Of a DNA stretch of 64,000 nucleotides, positions 1-7,006 are shown piece by piece. This DNA is from Rubrivivax albus (lineage in GTDB: Bacteria; Pseudomonadota; Gammaproteobacteria; Burkholderiales; Burkholderiaceae_C), in assembly GCF_004016515.1 (NCBI RefSeq), contig NZ_SACT01000003.1, positions 62,001-126,000 of the forward strand. Reading direction: 5' to 3'. Every line of letters begins with the position of its first letter. Position 1 is the first letter of the stretch. The notes under the pieces are model-generated. The model had not been told where the DNA came from and made no database searches. It was given only the letters and a program-made list of their open reading frames with translations. Made by a program: the position numbers and the translations under genes.

Positions 1-305
1 TCGGGATCTTCACCCTCACTCAGGCCATCCTCGGGGCGAATATTGGCAGCGAGGATGATGGTATTCGGGAACGCGGCGTCTGACCTATTAATGTAGTCCG
101 CGATTGCATTTAGCCTCTTTGGCTGGAGCAGTCGCTGCGTACCCTCGAGTTCATAGGACTGTCCGTCCGCACTAATTCTGGCGCTCAACCGATCGCTGTA
201 TGCCACCCGCAACAAGAGTTCGGCCGGCAGCACTACTACAAAGTATTCGCCCATAGGCTGGCGAACCCTTAGGGCAGGCACACTGTGCGGGAAGGTTGTC
301 GCCAT
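1..305 (-). CDS. DndB-like DGQHR-domain protein, 5' part only
   Basis: Partial gene: the ATG is at 305 and the frame stays open to the left edge, giving 101 visible codons. Residues 11-27 read ALRVRQPMGEYFVVVLP, an EGTQR motif lies at 54-58, then KRLNAIADYI (63-72) and FPNTIILAANI (79-89). This layout is that of the N-terminus of DndB/DGQHR-domain proteins. DndB is known as a regulator of dnd operons and of modification level. The start lies 4 bases after the stop of the membrane-protein gene, so it is probably the last visible cistron of the dnd-like operon. The ribosome-binding site is weak, which suggests translational coupling. The diagnostic later motifs lie outside the window, so the subfamily is open. 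Confidence 0.7.
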   Translation of the reverse strand, partial: MATTFPHSVPALRVRQPMGEYFVVVLPAELLLRVAYSDRLSARISADGQSYELEGTQRLLQPKRLNAIADYINRSDAAFPNTIILAANIRPEDGLSEGEDP

Positions 306-309
306 ATGT

Positions 310-843
310 CTAGGAGCTAAAGCCTTCAAGGCTACCCTGTAGGCTGGAATTCGGGTTGCTTCTACCTATGGCGGCATCAGTCCGACCATCCTGCAGCCCG
401 GGCTGGTTAGCGTTGGCAATCCACCAAGCCCACAACGCGAGCCAACAACCGACGAGCCCCAGCGTGATAGCGGTCGGGGAGCTCACCGAAGACGGCGCTA
501 TCGCCAAAGCAAGTATTGAAAGTGCTATCAGCAAACAAACCGCCGACGCACGCAATGCACGGTCATCATTCTCCTCCAAGATCACCTGCATGCAGGCAGA
601 ACCAGCGAGCGCCGGGAAGAATGTAATCAGTGCGGTGCGCAAGTTCTCCAATGAGCTGCATTCCCCAGCCGTCGGGAAGAGGAGCTTGTGCAGTTCGAGC
701 CAAAGACCCGCACCGCCAACGAGTAAGACTGAAGCGAAAAAATAGAGTACGAAACTGGGGTGGCGCCAAGGCTTCCGACTACGCTCCAAGAGCGTTCTCT
801 TGATCCGGCGCCAGTAGATGTACTTATCGGCCTCATCGTCCAT
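310..843 (-). CDS. Four-helix membrane protein of the dnd-like operon, function unknown
   Basis: I do not recognise this 177-residue protein. It starts with a charged, basic N-terminus (residues 1-29), followed by four hydrophobic segments at about 31-49, 67-88, 97-116 and 124-143. The tail of about 30 residues is polar and Ser/Asn/Gly rich. A good ribosome-binding site (GGGGAGA) precedes the ATG at 843. The gene follows the dndE-ftsK fusion after a 109-base gap and ends 4 bases before the DndB-like start, so it is probably in the same operon. Small membrane proteins encoded in defence loci are sometimes effectors; that is only a hypothesis here. Base composition is clearly less GC-rich than the ribosomal genes to the right. 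Confidence 0.65.
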   Translation of the reverse strand: MDDEADKYIYWRRIKRTLLERSRKPWRHPSFVLYFFASVLLVGGAGLWLELHKLLFPTAGECSSLENLRTALITFFPALAGSACMQVILEENDDRALRASAVCLLIALSILALAIAPSSVSSPTAITLGLVGCWLALWAWWIANANQPGLQDGRTDAAIGRSNPNSSLQGSLEGFSS

Positions 844-952: not shown

Positions 953-2494
953 TTACTTCATTAGGGCACCGACGGCCTGGATCACTGACTCCAACCGTAC
1001 AAAGACACCATGCGCTCGTTTCGGGGACTCGCCAGAAAGACGCATCAGCATGTCCCCGGCTCCCAGCAGATTCTCAGCACCCGTCTCATCCAAGATGATG
1101 GAAGATTCACTTCCCCGTTGGACTGTCAGTGCAATCCGACTTGGAATGTTGCTGCGTATGAGTCCGCTGAACGTCTTGGCGTCAGGCCGCTGCGTAGCCA
1201 AGACCAAGTGGATGCCTGCCGCGCGAGCCTTCTGCGCCAACCGTGCAATCAAGGGCTCGATGTTCTTGTCCTGCATCACAAGGTCGGCCATCTCCTCGAT
1301 GAAGACCACGATGTAGGGCATCGCTTGGCCCTTCCGGCGGGCCTCCACGATGTTGTTCACCCCGATGCGGTTGAAGATGCCGTATCGGGCGTCCATCTCA
1401 ACTGCCAGTTCGGTCAGCATCTCCTTGGCGACCGGAATCTCCGTGGCAATCTCGCCTCGGTAGAGGTTCGGCAGCTTGGCGTACGGCTGGAACTCGACCT
1501 GCTTGGGGTCGATTAGCGCCAACTGCAACGTATCCGGCGTGTGCCGCAGGAGCAGCGACAACAGCAAGGAGTGCAAGCAGACGCTCTTGCCCGAGCCGGT
1601 CGTGCCTCCCACCAGCAGGTGCGGTGCGCTCGCTAGGTCAAAGCCAATGTCCTCGCCCGTGACCGAGACTCCGGCGTAGACCATCAGCTGGCTTGGATCA
1701 CGAGAACCGGAGTGCGCCCACTCGCGCAGCCGCTCGATGCCCACCGTCTTCCAGGTCGCCTTGGGCCGAGGGAGGTCGATGAAGACAGTCTTGGCCTCGT
1801 CGCCATTGGCCACGGTCGGCAGTGCCGAATTCATGGCCAGGCCCAGCTGCGGCATGTTGCGCTCGAGTTTGGCGGAGTCCGCCAAATTCAATAGCAGCAC
1901 GCGGTAGCGGGTGATGCGCGGGCCGTGGATGGCATCCTTGACCTGGACCTTGATACCCAGCTCGTTGAGTGCCTTGGTCAGCGTCGCGGAGGCGTCCTCG
2001 GGAGCCGCCGTGCCCTCTTGCTCGTCGCCACCGTTGTCCTGGGCCCCCGGCTTCTTGCGGACCACCTCGGGCATGTCGGAGCGGCGCTCGACCAGGGTCT
2101 CGATGAACTTGTCGTAGTTCTCTTCGCAGGCCTTCCAGTCCGCCCAGAGGGACAAGGCACCGCGGTGCCAGTGAGCACGGATGGCCAGGCGCAGTCCGTC
2201 CATCGAATCAATGACCGGGCCGCCGTTGGTCAGGGAGTGCGCCACGAGCAGGCCCACCCACGCGCCCACGTTCTCGGTGCTGAACAGCGAAGTGGCCGGA
2301 ATGTCTCGGCCCTGGCCGTCGATAGCACCGTCCGGCAGCTTTCCCATCGCAAGAGAGCGACCGATGGCCAGGCGAGCCACCTGCGCCTTGGTTTCCAGGG
2401 CGAGGTGCTGGCGCATCTGGTCCGTGTAGCCGTCCGCTTCCAGGCTGGTCTTGTAGCGCGAGCCCAAAACTTGTTGGAGGTCGATGTCGCTCAT
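953..2494 (-). CDS. DndE-like domain fused to FtsK/SpoIIIE-type DNA translocase motor
   Basis: A 513-residue protein. Residues 1-130 resemble DndE: a short helical region with ARLAIGRSLA (40-49) and GRDIPATSLF (62-71). After a low-complexity linker (about 150-170), residues 180-245 resemble the FtsK segment preceding the motor. The motor has Walker A GGTTGSGKS (296-304), the LIDPKQVEF block (327-335), a Walker B-like YIVVFIEEMADL (394-405, Glu where FtsK usually has Asp), and LVLATQRP (430-437). There are no membrane helices and no FtsK gamma domain, so this is not the cell-division FtsK. The start overlaps the dndD stop by 4 bases (ATGA), implying co-translation. The motor call is firm; the DndE assignment is by eye. 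DndE binds DNA in classical systems; a fused pump would couple DNA binding to ATP-driven movement. Confidence 0.8.
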   Translation of the reverse strand: MSDIDLQQVLGSRYKTSLEADGYTDQMRQHLALETKAQVARLAIGRSLAMGKLPDGAIDGQGRDIPATSLFSTENVGAWVGLLVAHSLTNGGPVIDSMDGLRLAIRAHWHRGALSLWADWKACEENYDKFIETLVERRSDMPEVVRKKPGAQDNGGDEQEGTAAPEDASATLTKALNELGIKVQVKDAIHGPRITRYRVLLLNLADSAKLERNMPQLGLAMNSALPTVANGDEAKTVFIDLPRPKATWKTVGIERLREWAHSGSRDPSQLMVYAGVSVTGEDIGFDLASAPHLLVGGTTGSGKSVCLHSLLLSLLLRHTPDTLQLALIDPKQVEFQPYAKLPNLYRGEIATEIPVAKEMLTELAVEMDARYGIFNRIGVNNIVEARRKGQAMPYIVVFIEEMADLVMQDKNIEPLIARLAQKARAAGIHLVLATQRPDAKTFSGLIRSNIPSRIALTVQRGSESSIILDETGAENLLGAGDMLMRLSGESPKRAHGVFVRLESVIQAVGALMK

Positions 2495-4560
2495 GCTGCA
2501 CCTCCGAAGTACTTGTTGGGCACGACCGTCGTTCGTCCCAGCCCGTCACCCACGTCCTCGTGCTCCAGCAGGAAGGTAGCGCTGACGTTCTTCTTGATGC
2601 GCTTGTAGAACTCGGCGTCGATTTCCTCGTCCTGAGACAGCAAGATGACTTGCCGATTGGCGTTGCCAATCCAGAAGTTCAAGATGTTGGCGCGGTGCTT
2701 GCTGTCCAATCGGCCCAGAGGCGTGTCGACCACCAACGGAGCCTTGACCTTGGAAACCTCCGCCAGGCCTGCAATCAGGGCCGTGGCAAAGATTTGGTTC
2801 TCACCGGCGGAGCGGTCGAAGCCGATTTCCTTGTTGGTCTTGCTCAGAATGTGGGCCGTGCCGTCGCCGTCAATGACGATGCGGGCCACCTGGGTCTTGT
2901 GGGCAAGCTGCTTGTAGACCCGGGTCATCGCCTCCGACAGCGCCTTGACTTTCAGCGGGAACAGCGCCGGGATGACCTCTTCCACCACGGCACGCACACG
3001 CTCGGACTTGTTAAGCAGCTGACGAACGGGGCTGGTTTCGTCGCGACGCTTGCTCTCCTGCTGATAGCGGGAGCGCGTGTTGTTGACCGTCACCTCCAGA
3101 CCGATGACCTCGCGCTCATCGTCCTTGATATGGGTCTCCATCGCGTCAATATCGGCGGTGACGCGGCTGAGGTTCTTCTTCAGCTCGGCCAACGTCCCAT
3201 CGCGGTCGATGCCCTCGACGCGGGAAATCTTGCGGTTCAGCTCTTCAATGCGTGAGGTCAGCTCACGCTGCTGGTTCAGCAGGTCCAGAACTTCCTGCTG
3301 ACCCACGTCGATGGAGTCGAGGAACGACAGCGCACGGTCACGCAGGCTTTCGTGCAGATAGCTGTGCGTGATGGTCTCGGCACAGTTGGCCGGCGGCGGA
3401 TGGAACAGCGAGGCCCACGCGGTCTCAATGCGGCCCTTGATGGCGACAACCTGCTCCTCGGTCAGCTGCGGAGAAATCGCAGGCGTCGCAGCACCCAAGA
3501 ATGCGTTCTCGAACTTGGCACGCTTGGGCTGCAGAGCCCGACACTCGGCCTGCCACTCGGTCAGGGCTACTTCTCGCTGGAGCTGCGTGCGGAACTCCTG
3601 CAGCAGCGTGCGCGGCATCAGGTGGAAGGGCAGCTTGTCGGCCAGGATGCGCTCCAGCGACTTCTGCACATCTCGCTGGGCGTTGCGCAGCTGCTCGCGT
3701 TCTTCCACGAGGTCCTTGACGGTCGCAATGTCGCCACCGCCACCCCCGGCCGCGGTGATGCGCTCGAAGTACGAGTTGCGCTCTGCCTTGAGGTCGTCGA
3801 GCTTCTTCTTGCTCTGCTCGGCATCAAGACGCAGCGCCTTGAGCTTGGCCTCATCTGCCGTCAGCGCTTCCAGCATGCGGTCGATGTTCTGGTCATCAAC
3901 ATTCGCAATGCCTGACCGCTTGTAGCCTTCAAAGCCCTTCAGACGCTCGGCCAGATTGCGCAGCAACACGACACCCAGCAGGCCTTCCAGGCCTTGCTTA
4001 ACCTGCTCGATGCGGTTCTGGTCGGCCAGCTTCTTGACTTCTTCACCGTCGAAAAAGAAGAACGGGGCGACGTGGGCAGGCACGAAGTTGTCGTCCAGCA
4101 TTTCTGACAGCAGGAAGTTGTTCTTGCCGTCGGTCTTAGGCATGCCAGGAACGCCGCGCGTGGTCTCACGCACGACAGCTTCATCCTCCTGCCAGGCGCC
4201 GGTGGAGGTGCGGAAGTACCAGCGACGAAGAATGTCGATGCCCTTGGTCTTAGTCTTCTGGACCACGACACGAACGGACATGAGGTCTTCGCTGGCTCGT
4301 CGAGCCTCGCCATTGAAGGCCCGTTCCAGGAAGGACGGGTAGCCCTTGAACTCATCGGTCTTCAGACCCGCACGAGCCAGGTGGACGATGGCGTCCTTGC
4401 CATAGAGGCACAGGTACAGCGCCTCCAGGATGGAGGTCTTGCCATAGCCATTGATGCCGCCGACAAGAACGATGTTCTTCTCGCCCTCCGGCTCCGGGAA
4501 GTTGAAGTCGGCGTGACGGTAACTTTTGAAGTTCGTCAGCTCAATCTTTGAAATCCACAA
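2491..4560 (-). CDS. dndD: DNA sulfur modification protein DndD, SMC/Rad50-like ATPase
   Basis: A 689-residue ABC-type ATPase of the usual DndD size. The N-terminus has Walker A GGINGYGKTS (34-43) after the typical IELTNFKSY opening. Long coiled-coil segments fill the middle (about 220-300 and 420-520). The C-terminal lobe has the signature SAGENQIF (from 584) and Walker B PLVVDTPLGRLD (about 608-619). DndD supplies ATPase activity for phosphorothioate insertion together with DndC and DndE. I took the TTG at 4560 as start because GGGAGA lies about 8 bases upstream and the next residues match the family. The gene follows the 70-residue gene by 15 bases and overlaps the next gene by 4. Confidence 0.88.
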   Translation of the reverse strand: MWISKIELTNFKSYRHADFNFPEPEGEKNIVLVGGINGYGKTSILEALYLCLYGKDAIVHLARAGLKTDEFKGYPSFLERAFNGEARRASEDLMSVRVVVQKTKTKGIDILRRWYFRTSTGAWQEDEAVVRETTRGVPGMPKTDGKNNFLLSEMLDDNFVPAHVAPFFFFDGEEVKKLADQNRIEQVKQGLEGLLGVVLLRNLAERLKGFEGYKRSGIANVDDQNIDRMLEALTADEAKLKALRLDAEQSKKKLDDLKAERNSYFERITAAGGGGGDIATVKDLVEEREQLRNAQRDVQKSLERILADKLPFHLMPRTLLQEFRTQLQREVALTEWQAECRALQPKRAKFENAFLGAATPAISPQLTEEQVVAIKGRIETAWASLFHPPPANCAETITHSYLHESLRDRALSFLDSIDVGQQEVLDLLNQQRELTSRIEELNRKISRVEGIDRDGTLAELKKNLSRVTADIDAMETHIKDDEREVIGLEVTVNNTRSRYQQESKRRDETSPVRQLLNKSERVRAVVEEVIPALFPLKVKALSEAMTRVYKQLAHKTQVARIVIDGDGTAHILSKTNKEIGFDRSAGENQIFATALIAGLAEVSKVKAPLVVDTPLGRLDSKHRANILNFWIGNANRQVILLSQDEEIDAEFYKRIKKNVSATFLLEHEDVGDGLGRTTVVPNKYFGGAA

Positions 4561-4575
4561 GTTGTCGTCTCCCTG

Positions 4576-4788
4576 CTATTCCATGCCGCCCAGGATTTCT
4601 TCGAATCGGGCGTTAATGCCGGCAGCACGCTCTTGGTGTTGGCGCTCTCGCTGCAACGCCACCAGCTCGGTGATGACGTCTACGGGCACTTTGTGCTTAC
4701 TGCAGACTTGTCGAAGCACTTCATTGGCTTCGGGGTCCGCCCACAAGGGCAGGTCTGCAACGCTGGTCTCTTCGTAGTTGTCAGGCAT
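4576..4788 (-). CDS. Small acidic protein between dndC and dndD
   Basis: A 70-residue protein starting MPDNYEETSVADLPLW, with an ATG at 4788 that overlaps the end of dndC by 8 bases. The second half (about 36-68) is a charged amphipathic helix, DVITELVALQRERQHQERA, fit for a coiled coil or helical hairpin. It has no Cys motif, signal peptide or membrane segment. The position, wedged between dndC and dndD with coupled starts, argues for a stoichiometric partner in the modification complex. It is too short and too unlike DndE to be called that; the DndE-like sequence is in the FtsK fusion downstream. Function unknown. Confidence 0.75.
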   Translation of the reverse strand: MPDNYEETSVADLPLWADPEANEVLRQVCSKHKVPVDVITELVALQRERQHQERAAGINARFEEILGGME

Positions 4789-5908
4789 TTGCCAGCCTCT
4801 CCTCTTGTTGCAAGTCCATCGCCCAGCACTTGTGGATGAGGTCGATTTCCTCGTCCGTGATGAGCTTCGTACCGAACTCAGCCTGGGCAGCCAGTAGCCT
4901 CTCAAGAATCTCTTGCCGGGCCTGGATGGTGAACGGACCCGGGATGTGTTTACCCGACACATCGAACGTCAGGCGTCCGTTGCGGCGAATTGCGCTGCGC
5001 TTGGTCTTGTCGTTGCGGATGCTGACCAGCCAATCGCGGAAAGCGATTAGGGGCTTGTACGCATGTTGACCCGAGTCGACGAAGCCCTGCAGGCTCTTGT
5101 CCTTCTCGACCACGGTGCAGGTCCAGCAGCCGAAGCGGCTGTTCTTCGTGCCGCAACCAGGCGCCTCGTCTTTGCTCAGAACGACCGGGCACTCGCCGCC
5201 TTCGGCGTCGCGGTAAAGCTGGAACAGCTTCTTGTGCGAGCCACCCCAGGGAGCGTGGAAGGAGCCCAAAATTTCCCAGACGTCATCGGTCGTGAGGTCG
5301 ACGATGGGGCGGAAGATGTAGGCGCCAGTGATGCTCGAGTGCAGGTTGAGGTTGGTACCTCGGTCGTTCTCGTACTTGTCGACCGTGCGCATGCGCCGAA
5401 TGCTTTCCGTGCGTCGCACACCCAGCACTACGACGGCAGCGCCGTGCTTCGAGACGTTGTCGCGGATGTAGGTGCTGGTAGGCTGAATCTTGAGGCGGTC
5501 AGTGCACCAGCGCATTTGCTGGTTGGGGCTGGGGTACCCCTTGCCAATGAGGAGTACCCAGAACGTCTTGTCTGGGTCCGGTCGCGTGCGCGCCACCGTG
5601 ATGGGCAGGCTTAGGTTGTCGACTGCCCCTTGAATCTGGGCAGACACTTCGTCTAGGTGCGCCATGACCAAAGGACTTTCCACCATGGTGTCGTTGGACA
5701 CGATGTGAACTGGCCGACTGCGTTGGCTAGGCGGTACCGTGGCGAGGGCTTCGAACACCGCGTGGGCGACAACTGTCGAGTCCTTGCCGCCGGAGAAGCC
5801 AACAATCCAAGGCCAGCGCTGCGCATCTGAAAGGTACTCGTCCTTAACGTGTTGGACGACTTCGGCCCATCTTTCCTGTATTGGCCTGTCTGTTTGCTCA
5901 GCGGTCAC
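4781..5908 (-). CDS. dndC: DNA phosphorothioation sulfurtransferase DndC
   Basis: A 375-residue PAPS reductase-like ATP pyrophosphatase. The PP-loop SGGKDST is at 39-45 and RRTES at 165-169. Cysteines at 135 (MRWCTDR), 240, 252, 261 and 264 (RFGCWTCTVVEKDKS) match the iron-sulfur region of DndC. In known systems DndC adenylates the DNA backbone and transfers sulfur supplied by a cysteine desulfurase (DndA or IscS). It is shorter than the roughly 450-550 residues I recall for typical DndC, lacking part of the C-terminus. The GTG start at 5908 has AGGA about 8 bases upstream. It is the first gene of the operon; no desulfurase gene is in the window. Confidence 0.88.
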   Translation of the reverse strand: MTAEQTDRPIQERWAEVVQHVKDEYLSDAQRWPWIVGFSGGKDSTVVAHAVFEALATVPPSQRSRPVHIVSNDTMVESPLVMAHLDEVSAQIQGAVDNLSLPITVARTRPDPDKTFWVLLIGKGYPSPNQQMRWCTDRLKIQPTSTYIRDNVSKHGAAVVVLGVRRTESIRRMRTVDKYENDRGTNLNLHSSITGAYIFRPIVDLTTDDVWEILGSFHAPWGGSHKKLFQLYRDAEGGECPVVLSKDEAPGCGTKNSRFGCWTCTVVEKDKSLQGFVDSGQHAYKPLIAFRDWLVSIRNDKTKRSAIRRNGRLTFDVSGKHIPGPFTIQARQEILERLLAAQAEFGTKLITDEEIDLIHKCWAMDLQQEERLANA

Positions 5909-6436
5909 GAATCTGTCCTACAAGCATGTTTGTGTGTTCGACGGCAACGCCGGCACCTGTCGCCGTCTGCGAGGCGTAGCCGGCTCGCGCCTCTTGGGAG
6001 GGCGGCGGAATCGAGCCGCTCCGCTTCTACACACGGATGGTAGTGGAGACGGTGCGTGGCGCGGGCACTCGGAAACGATTGGGAAATGCGTAGGCAACGG
6101 CCGCGTATGCCCGTTTGCTGTCGCGACGCGAAGCGTCGGTCCGCGGCTGGTGTTGCGTAGGCGTCCAGCCCGAAATGTGGTTTGCAGCACGCTCAAACCG
6201 CGCATACCAGCTGGACTCGCAACACACTGCCGCGTTTACAGCCTGCACGACGATCACAGGCCTCGCCTCGCGATCACACCGAAGGAGTCGGCCGCCAGGC
6301 TTGGCCAAGGTTTGTCGGCAAGATCGAACACTTGTGGGCCAGTAGACCTACGGTCATTCAGGAACCAGTGCTGAGTCACGCGGGCCACAGATGGGCCAAC
6401 TGTGGGCCACAGACGGGCCACGTGGCCCAGAAACGC
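5909..6436. other. Intergenic junction between dnd-like block and tRNA-fMet
   Basis: About 530 bases with no recognisable gene. It should hold the dndC promoter, but no convincing -35/-10 pair was seen on the minus strand. Near the right end two imperfect 22-base tandem units lie at 6382-6403 and 6404-6425 (18 of 22 identical). They include the inverted repeat CTGTGGGCCACAG (6400-6412) and the perfect palindrome GGGCCACGTGGCCC (6415-6428). I looked for the TACG-N10-CGTA operator I recall for a Salmonella DndB and did not find it. No integrase remnant could be identified. The stretch may be an old integration junction. Confidence 0.5.
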
Positions 6437-6461
6437 CGAAGCCCGCACGAGGCGGGCTTCG
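6431..6461 (-). terminator. Terminator downstream of the alpha operon and tRNA-fMet
   Basis: Perfect 10-base-pair stem CGAAGCCCGC (6437-6446) and GCGGGCTTCG (6452-6461) with a 5-base loop. On the minus strand it is followed by GCGTTTCT, a weak U-tract. It lies just after the tRNA-fMet gene in the direction of transcription and probably ends the ribosomal transcript. Confidence 0.7.
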
Positions 6462-6488
6462 TAAGTGCTTGTCAGCACTCATATTTCT

Positions 6489-6565
<77 letters not shown>

Positions 6566-6610
6566 ACTGAGCCTGACATCATAGCACGCCACGCGTGCCG
6601 ATGTGAAGTC

Positions 6611-7006
6611 TTATTCGGCGGCGGGCTCTTCCGCAGCGGCTTCCTCGACCGGACGATCAACCAGCTCGACGAAGGCCATCGGCGCGTTGTCGCCGACGCG
6701 GAAGCCCATCTTCAGGATGCGGGTGTAGCCGCCCGGGCGCGCGGCGTAGCGCGGGCCGAGCACGTCGAAGAGCTTGGTCACCACGTCGCGGTCGCGCGTG
6801 CGGTCGAAGGCCAGGCGGCGGTTGGCCAGCGTGGCGTCCTTGCCCAGCGTGATCAGCGGCTCGACGAGACGGCGCAGTTCCTTGGCCTTGGGGACCGTGG
6901 TCTTGATCGCCTCGTGGGTGATCAGCGAATTGCACATGTTGCGGAACATCGCGGCGCGATGGCTGCTCGTGCGGTTGAGTTTGCGGAGTCCGTGACGATG
7001 GCGCAT
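6611..7006 (-). CDS. rplQ: Large-subunit ribosomal protein L17
   Basis: A 131-residue protein starting [17 protein letters not shown], the conserved L17 opening, with an Ala/Glu-rich C-terminal tail (about 118-131). L17 sits near the peptide exit tunnel. It is the last protein gene of the alpha operon, 66 bases after rpoA, and is followed by tRNA-fMet. Confidence 0.97.

Follow-up and report, generated by a model that had tools for sequence, protein, structure and literature searches.

What is the role of a gene that joins a DndE-like head to an FtsK-type DNA motor? The question is raised by a minus-strand open reading frame of Rubrivivax albus (positions 953..2494, ATG start, 513 amino acids), which lies directly behind dndD in a 64,000-nucleotide stretch of contig NZ_SACT01000003.1 (the window hereafter). 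The most likely role of the fusion is that of the DndE in phosphorothioate (Dnd) modification, and we consider it probable that the protein represents the DndE subunit of the modification complex with a built-in translocase for double-stranded DNA (dsDNA). What can be seen directly is the architecture of the protein with folds predicted to be those of DndE and FtsK, its intact motor residues, the coupled cassette, the single DndE match of most genomes with relatives and the signature of purifying selection on both parts. The tandem ribbon-helix-helix (RHH) head would bind, read or hold the DNA target and dock on the DndD dimer, as its family and the coupled genes suggest, and the FtsK alpha-beta part, judged by its fold and conserved catalytic residues, would form a ring round duplex DNA and hydrolyse ATP to move it. 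The complex could pump or scan long stretches of DNA while DndC inserts sulfur, with the small protein of the cassette acting as the detached C-terminal piece of DndC. The hexamer, the translocation, the docking on DndD and the role in modification are the parts of this proposal that we infer.

The gene is delimited by Pfam and NCBIfam matches and by a full-length alignment of 26 sequences (A4), and its product has the order DndE-fold head, disordered linker, FtsK alpha domain and complete FtsK beta motor, all encoded on the minus strand. The head (residues 1-138; 2081..2494) consists of two strand-helix-helix (RHH) units and a C-terminal helix in the AlphaFold2 model, which was compared with known structures by Foldseek and VIA-align. 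It is followed by a variable linker (residues 139-165; 2000..2080), by the alpha domain (about residues 166-250; 1745..1999), which is recognised by PF17854 at residues 158-242 and by its modelled helices and strands, and by the RecA-like beta motor (about residues 251-513; 956..1744), which matches PF01580 and the structures 2ius and 6t8b. The original prediction of about 130 DndE-like residues, with the rest being motor, was right about both parts; the head extends to near residue 138, and the linker and the alpha domain intervene before the beta motor. Neither a gamma domain nor a membrane domain is listed by Pfam at E <= 1, the chain stops after the beta domain, and the Pfam scan found no nuclease domain. 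The full-length model (predicted local distance difference test, pLDDT, 84.2) is disordered at residues 139-162 (pLDDT <50) and continues with an FtsK-like body; its predicted template modelling score of 0.64 makes the orientation of the head relative to the motor unreliable.

The joining of a DndE head to an FtsK pump is real, and both parts are maintained. The ratio of nonsynonymous to synonymous substitution rates (dN/dS) is 0.03-0.08 in head, alpha domain and motor in comparison with L020, L026 and L027, the last from an environmental strain of Variovorax boronicumulans, where dS is unsaturated, and 0.33-0.65 in the linker in comparison with five relatives; the remaining dS values of 1.1-2.9 are high, so that these ratios are rough. 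Because of saturated dS, L028 and L029 gave no ratio except in the linker, and L020 and L027 each lacked it for a single segment. Judged by these values, purifying selection acts on the head as well as on the motor. A decaying or misassembled fusion without function could be imagined from the surrounding island, in which an IS3-like transposase gene, named by reading of its translation, lies near the operon. This explanation is hardly conceivable in the face of the low dN/dS ratios, the catalytic residues conserved in 26/26 sequences, and the occurrence of homologues of full length both in other genomes and on plasmids.

The identity of the head was established by structure prediction, by profiles and by its relatives. 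The AlphaFold2 model of residues 1-150, based on a 30-sequence alignment (pLDDT 89.0), comprises the elements E13-15, H18-31, H36-48, E64-66, H76-89, H98-122 and H127-139. The first 17 rows of its Foldseek search are all DndE crystal structures (E 1.5e-3 to 0.11, probability 1.00), so the fold is that of DndE and not an unrelated one; none of the rows reached E 0.001. The VIA-align comparison yielded Z 14.7 for 7x4e (root-mean-square deviation 2.3, 113 aligned residues), 12.1 for 4lrv and 11.3 for 5wtu, covering at most residues 4-127, and the next fold, with Z 8.8, is chain E of the F-plasmid relaxosome 9f0x, which we take to be TraY. TraY is the other tandem-RHH protein named in section 13 of PMC10853773. 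Since helical models can score Z values of about 13-14 from their arrangement alone, the fold was weighed together with the DndE profiles and the gene context. Searched as a profile against the sequences of solved structures, the head did not retrieve DndE, and the link to this family comes from the fold comparison and the DndE profiles.

The profiles match the window's own protein weakly and its relatives clearly. PF08870 (DndE) aligns with residues 14-116 of the fusion at 12.5 bits for the whole protein and 15.4 bits for the head alone, compared to a curated cut-off of 25, and TIGR03184 scores 13.7 bits. A profile search with the head alone, as suggested in the original prediction, hence remains below the cut-off for the single sequence, and all seven members of the head alignment (A2) match DndE (best E 2.4e-9). 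Relatives exceed the cut-off with 35.7 (L050), 31.7 (L047), 32.5 (L056) and 37.5 bits (L060), and PF08870 is matched at E <= 0.1 in 40 of the 41 genomes with relatives, in 29 of them above the cut-off; the DndE profile of PADLOC matches one of 26 relatives. The head shows the features of the DndE family, namely tandem RHH units, a long second core helix, a C-terminal helix and an adjoining DndD-type ABC ATPase gene. Its modelled loops of 4 residues (H1a-H2a) and 8 residues (H1b-H2b) fit the clade-1, DndD-paired DndE as described in section 14 of PMC10853773, which gives averages of 15 and 14 residues for clade 2. By its predicted fold and by its relatives, the head belongs to DndE. A generic FtsK N-terminal Pfam domain was considered for the head and rejected, FtsK_alpha being the only such domain listed at E <= 1.

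Could the gene encode a generic FtsK-like motor of plasmids or other elements, whose unrelated N-terminal domain resembles DndE by chance? The Pfam score below the cut-off and the Foldseek values short of E 0.001 would be compatible with such a coincidence, as would the name "DNA translocase FtsK" of three plasmid-borne relatives. The gap between Z 14.7 for DndE and 8.8 for the next fold, the profile matches above the cut-off in 29/41 genomes and the position of the gene behind dndD in most loci render it very improbable. The proposed recognition of nicks or phosphorothioates by the head has a precedent in its first half, because an archaeal DndE is reported to prefer nicked DNA (PMC9239217); recognition of phosphorothioates is not assigned to DndE in the passages of PMC9239217 and PMC10853773 considered here, and section 13 of the latter argues for a role of DndE in target-site recognition.

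The motor is an FtsK alpha-beta module by sequence and fold. PF01580 (FtsK_SpoIIIE) matches it with 159.9 bits (cut-off 24) and PF17854 (FtsK_alpha) with 25.5 bits (cut-off 22.9), the model retrieves FtsK motor structures with a best Foldseek E of 7e-31, and residues 176-504 are 40% identical to Escherichia coli FtsK. These matches and the DndE fold of the head bear out the predicted combination of a DndE-like head and an FtsK motor. In alignment A4 the Walker A motif GGTTGSGKS (residues 296-304; 1583..1609, minus strand) has G302, K303 and S304 in 26/26 rows; Ser304 and Lys303 are accompanied as invariant residues by Glu401, Arg424 and Gln435, of which Arg424 is the presumed arginine finger and Gln435 the presumed sensor according to the alignment and the description in the passages used of PMC10853773. 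The Walker B motif reads IEEMADL, and its acidic pair Glu400-Glu401 (1292..1297, minus strand) has Glu at the position of the E. coli FtsK Asp, exactly as originally noticed. This exchange is lineage-specific, with 16 Glu and 10 Asp among the 26 sequences at position 400 and Glu in all of them at position 401. The idea that the Glu marks an inactive motor was rejected, as the choice between Glu and Asp depends on the lineage and the remaining catalytic positions examined are invariant in the 26 sequences.

The gene context connects the fusion with modification. The cassette has the order dndC, small protein, dndD and dndE::motor on the minus strand. The dndC gene (4781..5908) encodes a PP-loop sulfurtransferase of 375 amino acids with an SGGKDS motif and Cys residues (TIGR03183, 375.9 bits, cut-off 290.4), and the ABC ATPase gene dndD (2491..4560; TIGR03185, 296.5 bits, cut-off 245.85) overlaps the fusion by 4 nucleotides (ATGA). 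Both exceed curated cut-offs beside dndE, as in Dnd modification systems. Between them lies a gene for a protein of 70 amino acids (4576..4788) that resembles the missing C-terminus of DndC: it matches positions 382-444 of the 447 of TIGR03183 (E 3.3e-4), and the neighbouring DndC covers positions 2-364. Its homologues (alignment A5) match PRK06850 in 12/12 and TIGR03183 in 11/12 cases, weakly (E <= 0.1), and in sequence the small protein looks like a detached C-terminal piece of DndC.

This arrangement is widely conserved among the relatives. They comprise 42 genome loci that were drawn by a single peptide-pattern scan of genome contigs, and the counts apply to this sample; the contigs of L065, L055 and L057 are those of L013, L014 and L016. 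In the locus set of 35 FtsK-type and 14 HerA-type fusions, of which several are cut by contig ends and one is counted twice (L013, L065), dndC was recognised in 32/35 and 12/14 loci, the small protein in 30/35 and 9/14, and dndD in 33/35 and 13/14, respectively. Of 52 loci, 37 show the 4-nucleotide overlap with dndD; in four of the 52, dndD is missing from the stretch searched. In seven of the 35 FtsK-type loci, all of them alphaproteobacterial (L021, L022, L039-L041, L043, L044), a gene for a TusA-like sulfur carrier overlaps the end of the fusion gene by 4 nucleotides, which suggests a dedicated sulfur supply. Relatives of the head were found in 8/399 genomes of the window's own order, its own included, and in seven plasmid records; none was found in a phage collection at E <= 0.01, and one lies on a viral contig (L117). 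The closest plasmid-borne cassette (L020) is located among insertion sequences on plasmid psl2395s1p of Burkholderia glumae, which is typed as conjugative.

The distribution of DndE matches carries most weight in the assignment. In the genome of the window, the fusion is the single PF08870 match, and exactly one match (E <= 0.1) was found in 38 of the 41 genomes with relatives. The others have three (G963), two (G964) or none (G968); the locus of the latter (L057) has a contig end at its start, and residues 1-30 of the head are missing. The single match lies in a frame of at least 434 amino acids in 37 of 38 cases, and that of G977 in a frame of 106 amino acids with an internal stop. It is above all the presence of one DndE match in most genomes that leads us to place the fusion with modification and not with a separate restriction module.

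Several observations weigh against the assignment and have to be set beside it. Phosphorothioation and translocation are predicted here from genes and models. In many Dnd systems DndE is short and motor-free, so modification in itself does not require a motor. Divergent DndE genes could escape the PF08870 scan; the window's own head falls below the curated cut-off. No cysteine desulfurase is listed among the cassette genes of the window, where no search aimed at DndA or IscS was made, and the best PADLOC profile of the dndD gene is labelled PbeC. FtsK_alpha exceeds its cut-off in two of the five FtsK-type fusions scanned (25.5 bits in the window, 29.1 in L039), with 17.7 bits in L050, 15.9 in L023 and no listing in L019. 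In L045 (7913-9010), a gene for an SBD-HNH-like, restriction-endonuclease-like protein of 365 amino acids abuts the fusion at the usual place of dndD, which was not found there.

The last case leads to the question of restriction. The fusion could act mainly in restriction, as a translocase that takes the role of DndH in compact form: its head would read the modification state or the target sites, and its motor would pump unmodified DNA to the nuclease of another gene. The translocases DndH and SspH are FtsK/HerA motors, and SspH profiles of PADLOC match the motor in 26/26 relatives. The island of the window contains a gene for a phosphorothioate-DNA restriction endonuclease (NF045808, 346.3 bits; L004 6830-7726), outside the window past its start; this family is matched at E <= 1e-20 in 7 of the 41 relatives' genomes, and the SBD-HNH-like gene that abuts the fusion in L045 is related to it. 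The DndH model TIGR03237 matched neither the genome of the window nor any of the 41 relatives' genomes; the model matched no control genome either, and the absence of DndH is unproven. The SspH model PDLC02804 was likewise without a match in 274 genomes, and matched no control. The fusion itself lacks a nuclease domain, and the loci do not share a nuclease gene: SBD-HNH-like genes are present in 2/35 FtsK-type and 1/14 HerA-type loci, neighbour clustering of the loci revealed no other recurrent nuclease, and NF045808 exceeds its cut-off in only one of the 41 genomes. Furthermore, the single DndE match of most genomes would need to serve both modification and restriction, and the motor clade is separate from the two SspH motors tested. 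We regard the restriction scenario as rather unlikely, and the original proposal of a motor in the place of DndH is not supported as stated, because the motor sits on a modification-side subunit, no nuclease accompanies it throughout, and the 0/41 result for TIGR03237 is without a matching control. The preferred reading remains that of a modification subunit with its own pump.

A broader comparison of the loci indicates that this pump is one of several devices attached to related heads. According to Walker A position and motifs, the 42 loci encode an FtsK motor in 30 cases, a second motor type in ten, no motor in one (L052) and an exonuclease in one (L059). Four of the ten second-type motors were scanned, and all four exceed the DUF87/HerA cut-off of 23.2 bits (26.9, 23.6, 40.6, 37.0). 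The exonuclease fusion of Candidatus Parabeggiatoa sp. HSG14 (L059 8995-10032) has 345 amino acids, with a DndE head and a DEDDh exonuclease (RNase_T, 93.2 bits); its gene lies behind those for the small protein and DndD, and the same genome has two other DndE matches, one of 137.8 bits.

In the motor tree, 30 DndE-FtsK rows are located on one side of a branch (99/94), apart from 14 FtsK, three TerD-FtsK and two SspH rows. Four of the 30 belong to the second layout described below (L023, L103, L105, L106), and L103 has no detectable head; nine rows were left out due to thinning or long branches (L019, L026, L034, L036, L041, L042, L044, L045, L067). Two other motor trees lost rows through a strict Walker A pattern, one of them the SspH and TerD rows and the other also the cellular FtsK rows, L103 and four fusions. 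In the DndD tree, built from 47 rows and 690 columns, the FtsK-bearing lineages form two groups: eight of them join three HerA-bearing rows (100/99), apart from the remaining 25, and given its well-supported branches, the motor label must have changed at least twice. The head tree, which lacks three short heads (L018, L048, L067) and the L023 head missed by the head profile, agrees with at least two label changes; long branches (L019, L023, L024) weaken the details of the trees. FtsK motors of a single clade with DndD partners of split origin are most simply explained by at least one replacement or transfer of the motor, and the pump part appears from these phylogenies to have been exchanged during evolution.

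We think the balance tilts towards a general scheme in which DndE would be an exchangeable docking head on a conserved core of dndC, small protein and dndD. To this head an FtsK alpha-beta motor, a HerA-type motor or a DEDDh exonuclease would have been joined, or no module at all, and the motor would have been replaced at least once. The form with FtsK would then represent a capture on the modification side, parallel to the published "HerA/FtsK capture" of DndH. If true, this scheme implies that the systems concerned need processive DNA movement, whatever the engine. A gene that joins DndE to a pump gives direct access to the role of DndE in phosphorothioation and to the reason why some of its versions carry a motor. 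The heads with FtsK, with a HerA-type motor, with an exonuclease and without a motor, all encoded near related dndD genes, provide a natural comparison panel. For annotation, the name "DNA translocase FtsK" on plasmid-borne relatives hides the DndE part.

Beyond the fusion gene, the cassette is followed on the same strand by a gene for a small predicted membrane protein of 177 amino acids (310..843), which has several hydrophobic stretches by hydropathy and whose homologues adjoin a DGQHR gene. In the window, this DndB-like DGQHR gene is cut by the start (1..329, minus strand); it is whole in L004 (9080-10330; TIGR04172, 461.5 bits, cut-off 450). The pair invites an alternative in which the motor acts at the membrane, where the membrane protein and the DGQHR protein dock it and entering phage or plasmid DNA is engaged, comparable to the docking of cellular FtsK by its membrane domain. 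No FtsK membrane domain is listed for the fusion, and one or both genes also occur near 12/35 FtsK-type and 4/14 HerA-type cassettes, several of which are truncated. In most loci the pair is unseen within the stretch examined, and it is also present with another Dnd layout (L023); we consider membrane action improbable and retain the modification subunit as the preferred reading.

The island in the genome of the window (L004) further comprises a tyrosine-recombinase-like gene and a Dnd-associated methyltransferase-like gene (dnd_rel_methyl, 525 bits; 4137-6722), the latter outside the window past its start, together with the complete DGQHR gene and the PT-DNA_restrict gene (NF045808). It is a paradox that an enzyme whose name implies binding to phosphorothioated DNA is encoded next to the genes for this modification. 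At the other end, a tRNA-Met gene (6489..6565, minus strand; ARAGORN, L116 18490-18566) separates dndC from ribosomal-protein genes, which were named by reading of their translations. The tRNA gene is a possible island edge; the search for attachment (att) repeats did not find a repeat matching its end at the recombinase end of the island.

Two other arrangements were encountered in the survey. The first is a second layout (L023 8660-14224; L103, L105, L106) composed of a dndD-like gene and genes for an FtsK-type protein, an AAA-type ATPase and a further protein, and it sometimes adjoins an ordinary dndD-dndE pair. One example is the Mesorhizobium plasmid L023 with two dndD genes, a stand-alone DndE coming after the first of them and a DndE-FtsK fusion after the other. 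The head of this fusion is clear (PF08870, 35.4 bits), those of L105 and L106 are weak (10.6 and 12.7 bits with the head profile), and L103 is unmatched at E <= 1. The second arrangement is the fusion of a TerD domain with an FtsK alpha-beta motor in the same phylum (L104 3542-5332, L107 4800-6554, L108 4162-5874), recognised by Pfam in L104 and L107 and by similarity in L108; in the motor tree, these motors form the sister group of the cellular FtsK sequences sampled.

Fusions of DndE with FtsK/HerA are a kind already in print. Rakesh, Aravind and Krishnan (2024; PMC10853773, section 22) describe, for a subset of phosphorothioate-modification systems, "clade-3" HerA/FtsK domains that form one protein with DndE and are encoded next to a DndD-related gene, citing Krishnan et al. 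(2020). Like them, the window's fusion unites DndE with a HerA/FtsK ATPase in a single chain and has a DndD-related gene at its side; it differs in that this protein and that of L039 pass the FtsK_alpha cut-off, whereas the clade-3 fusions are known here by a description without domain anatomy. The same paper states that the FtsK alpha domain of one Orc/CDC6-linked set is otherwise confined to certain DndH proteins and cellular FtsK, to which the window's fusion would be an addition. The FtsK-alpha version and the variety of modules on related heads, with its conflict between motor and DndD trees, are not described in the passages of PMC10853773 used here, and we make no claim that they are unreported.

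With PbeABCD or CxC-type systems, the cassette has in common the pair of ABC ATPase and DndE, a small protein and the label PbeC given to dndD by PADLOC, but its DndD passes the curated DndD cut-off and contains neither a CxC nor a CxxC motif, and the loops of the head are of the clade-1 type. Cellular FtsK/SpoIIIE is likewise an alpha-beta dsDNA motor; the fusion is devoid of a listed membrane domain and of a listed gamma domain, which reads FtsK-orienting polar sequences (KOPS), and falls outside the 14 FtsK of the trees. DndH/DptH and SspH are also FtsK/HerA-type motors of phosphorothioate-linked loci, yet they are large, with a mean of 1,700 residues for DndH (PMC10853773, section 21), and contain many further domains including a nuclease; the fusion, for which TIGR03237 is not listed at E <= 0.1, combines DndE and motor only and would belong to the modification side. 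Canonical DndE (PF08870; 4lrv, 7x4e), finally, has the same tandem-RHH fold and the same gene position directly behind dndD, but it is short and motor-free, with solved chains of 91-114 amino acids, to which the window's fusion adds about 350 amino acids of FtsK.

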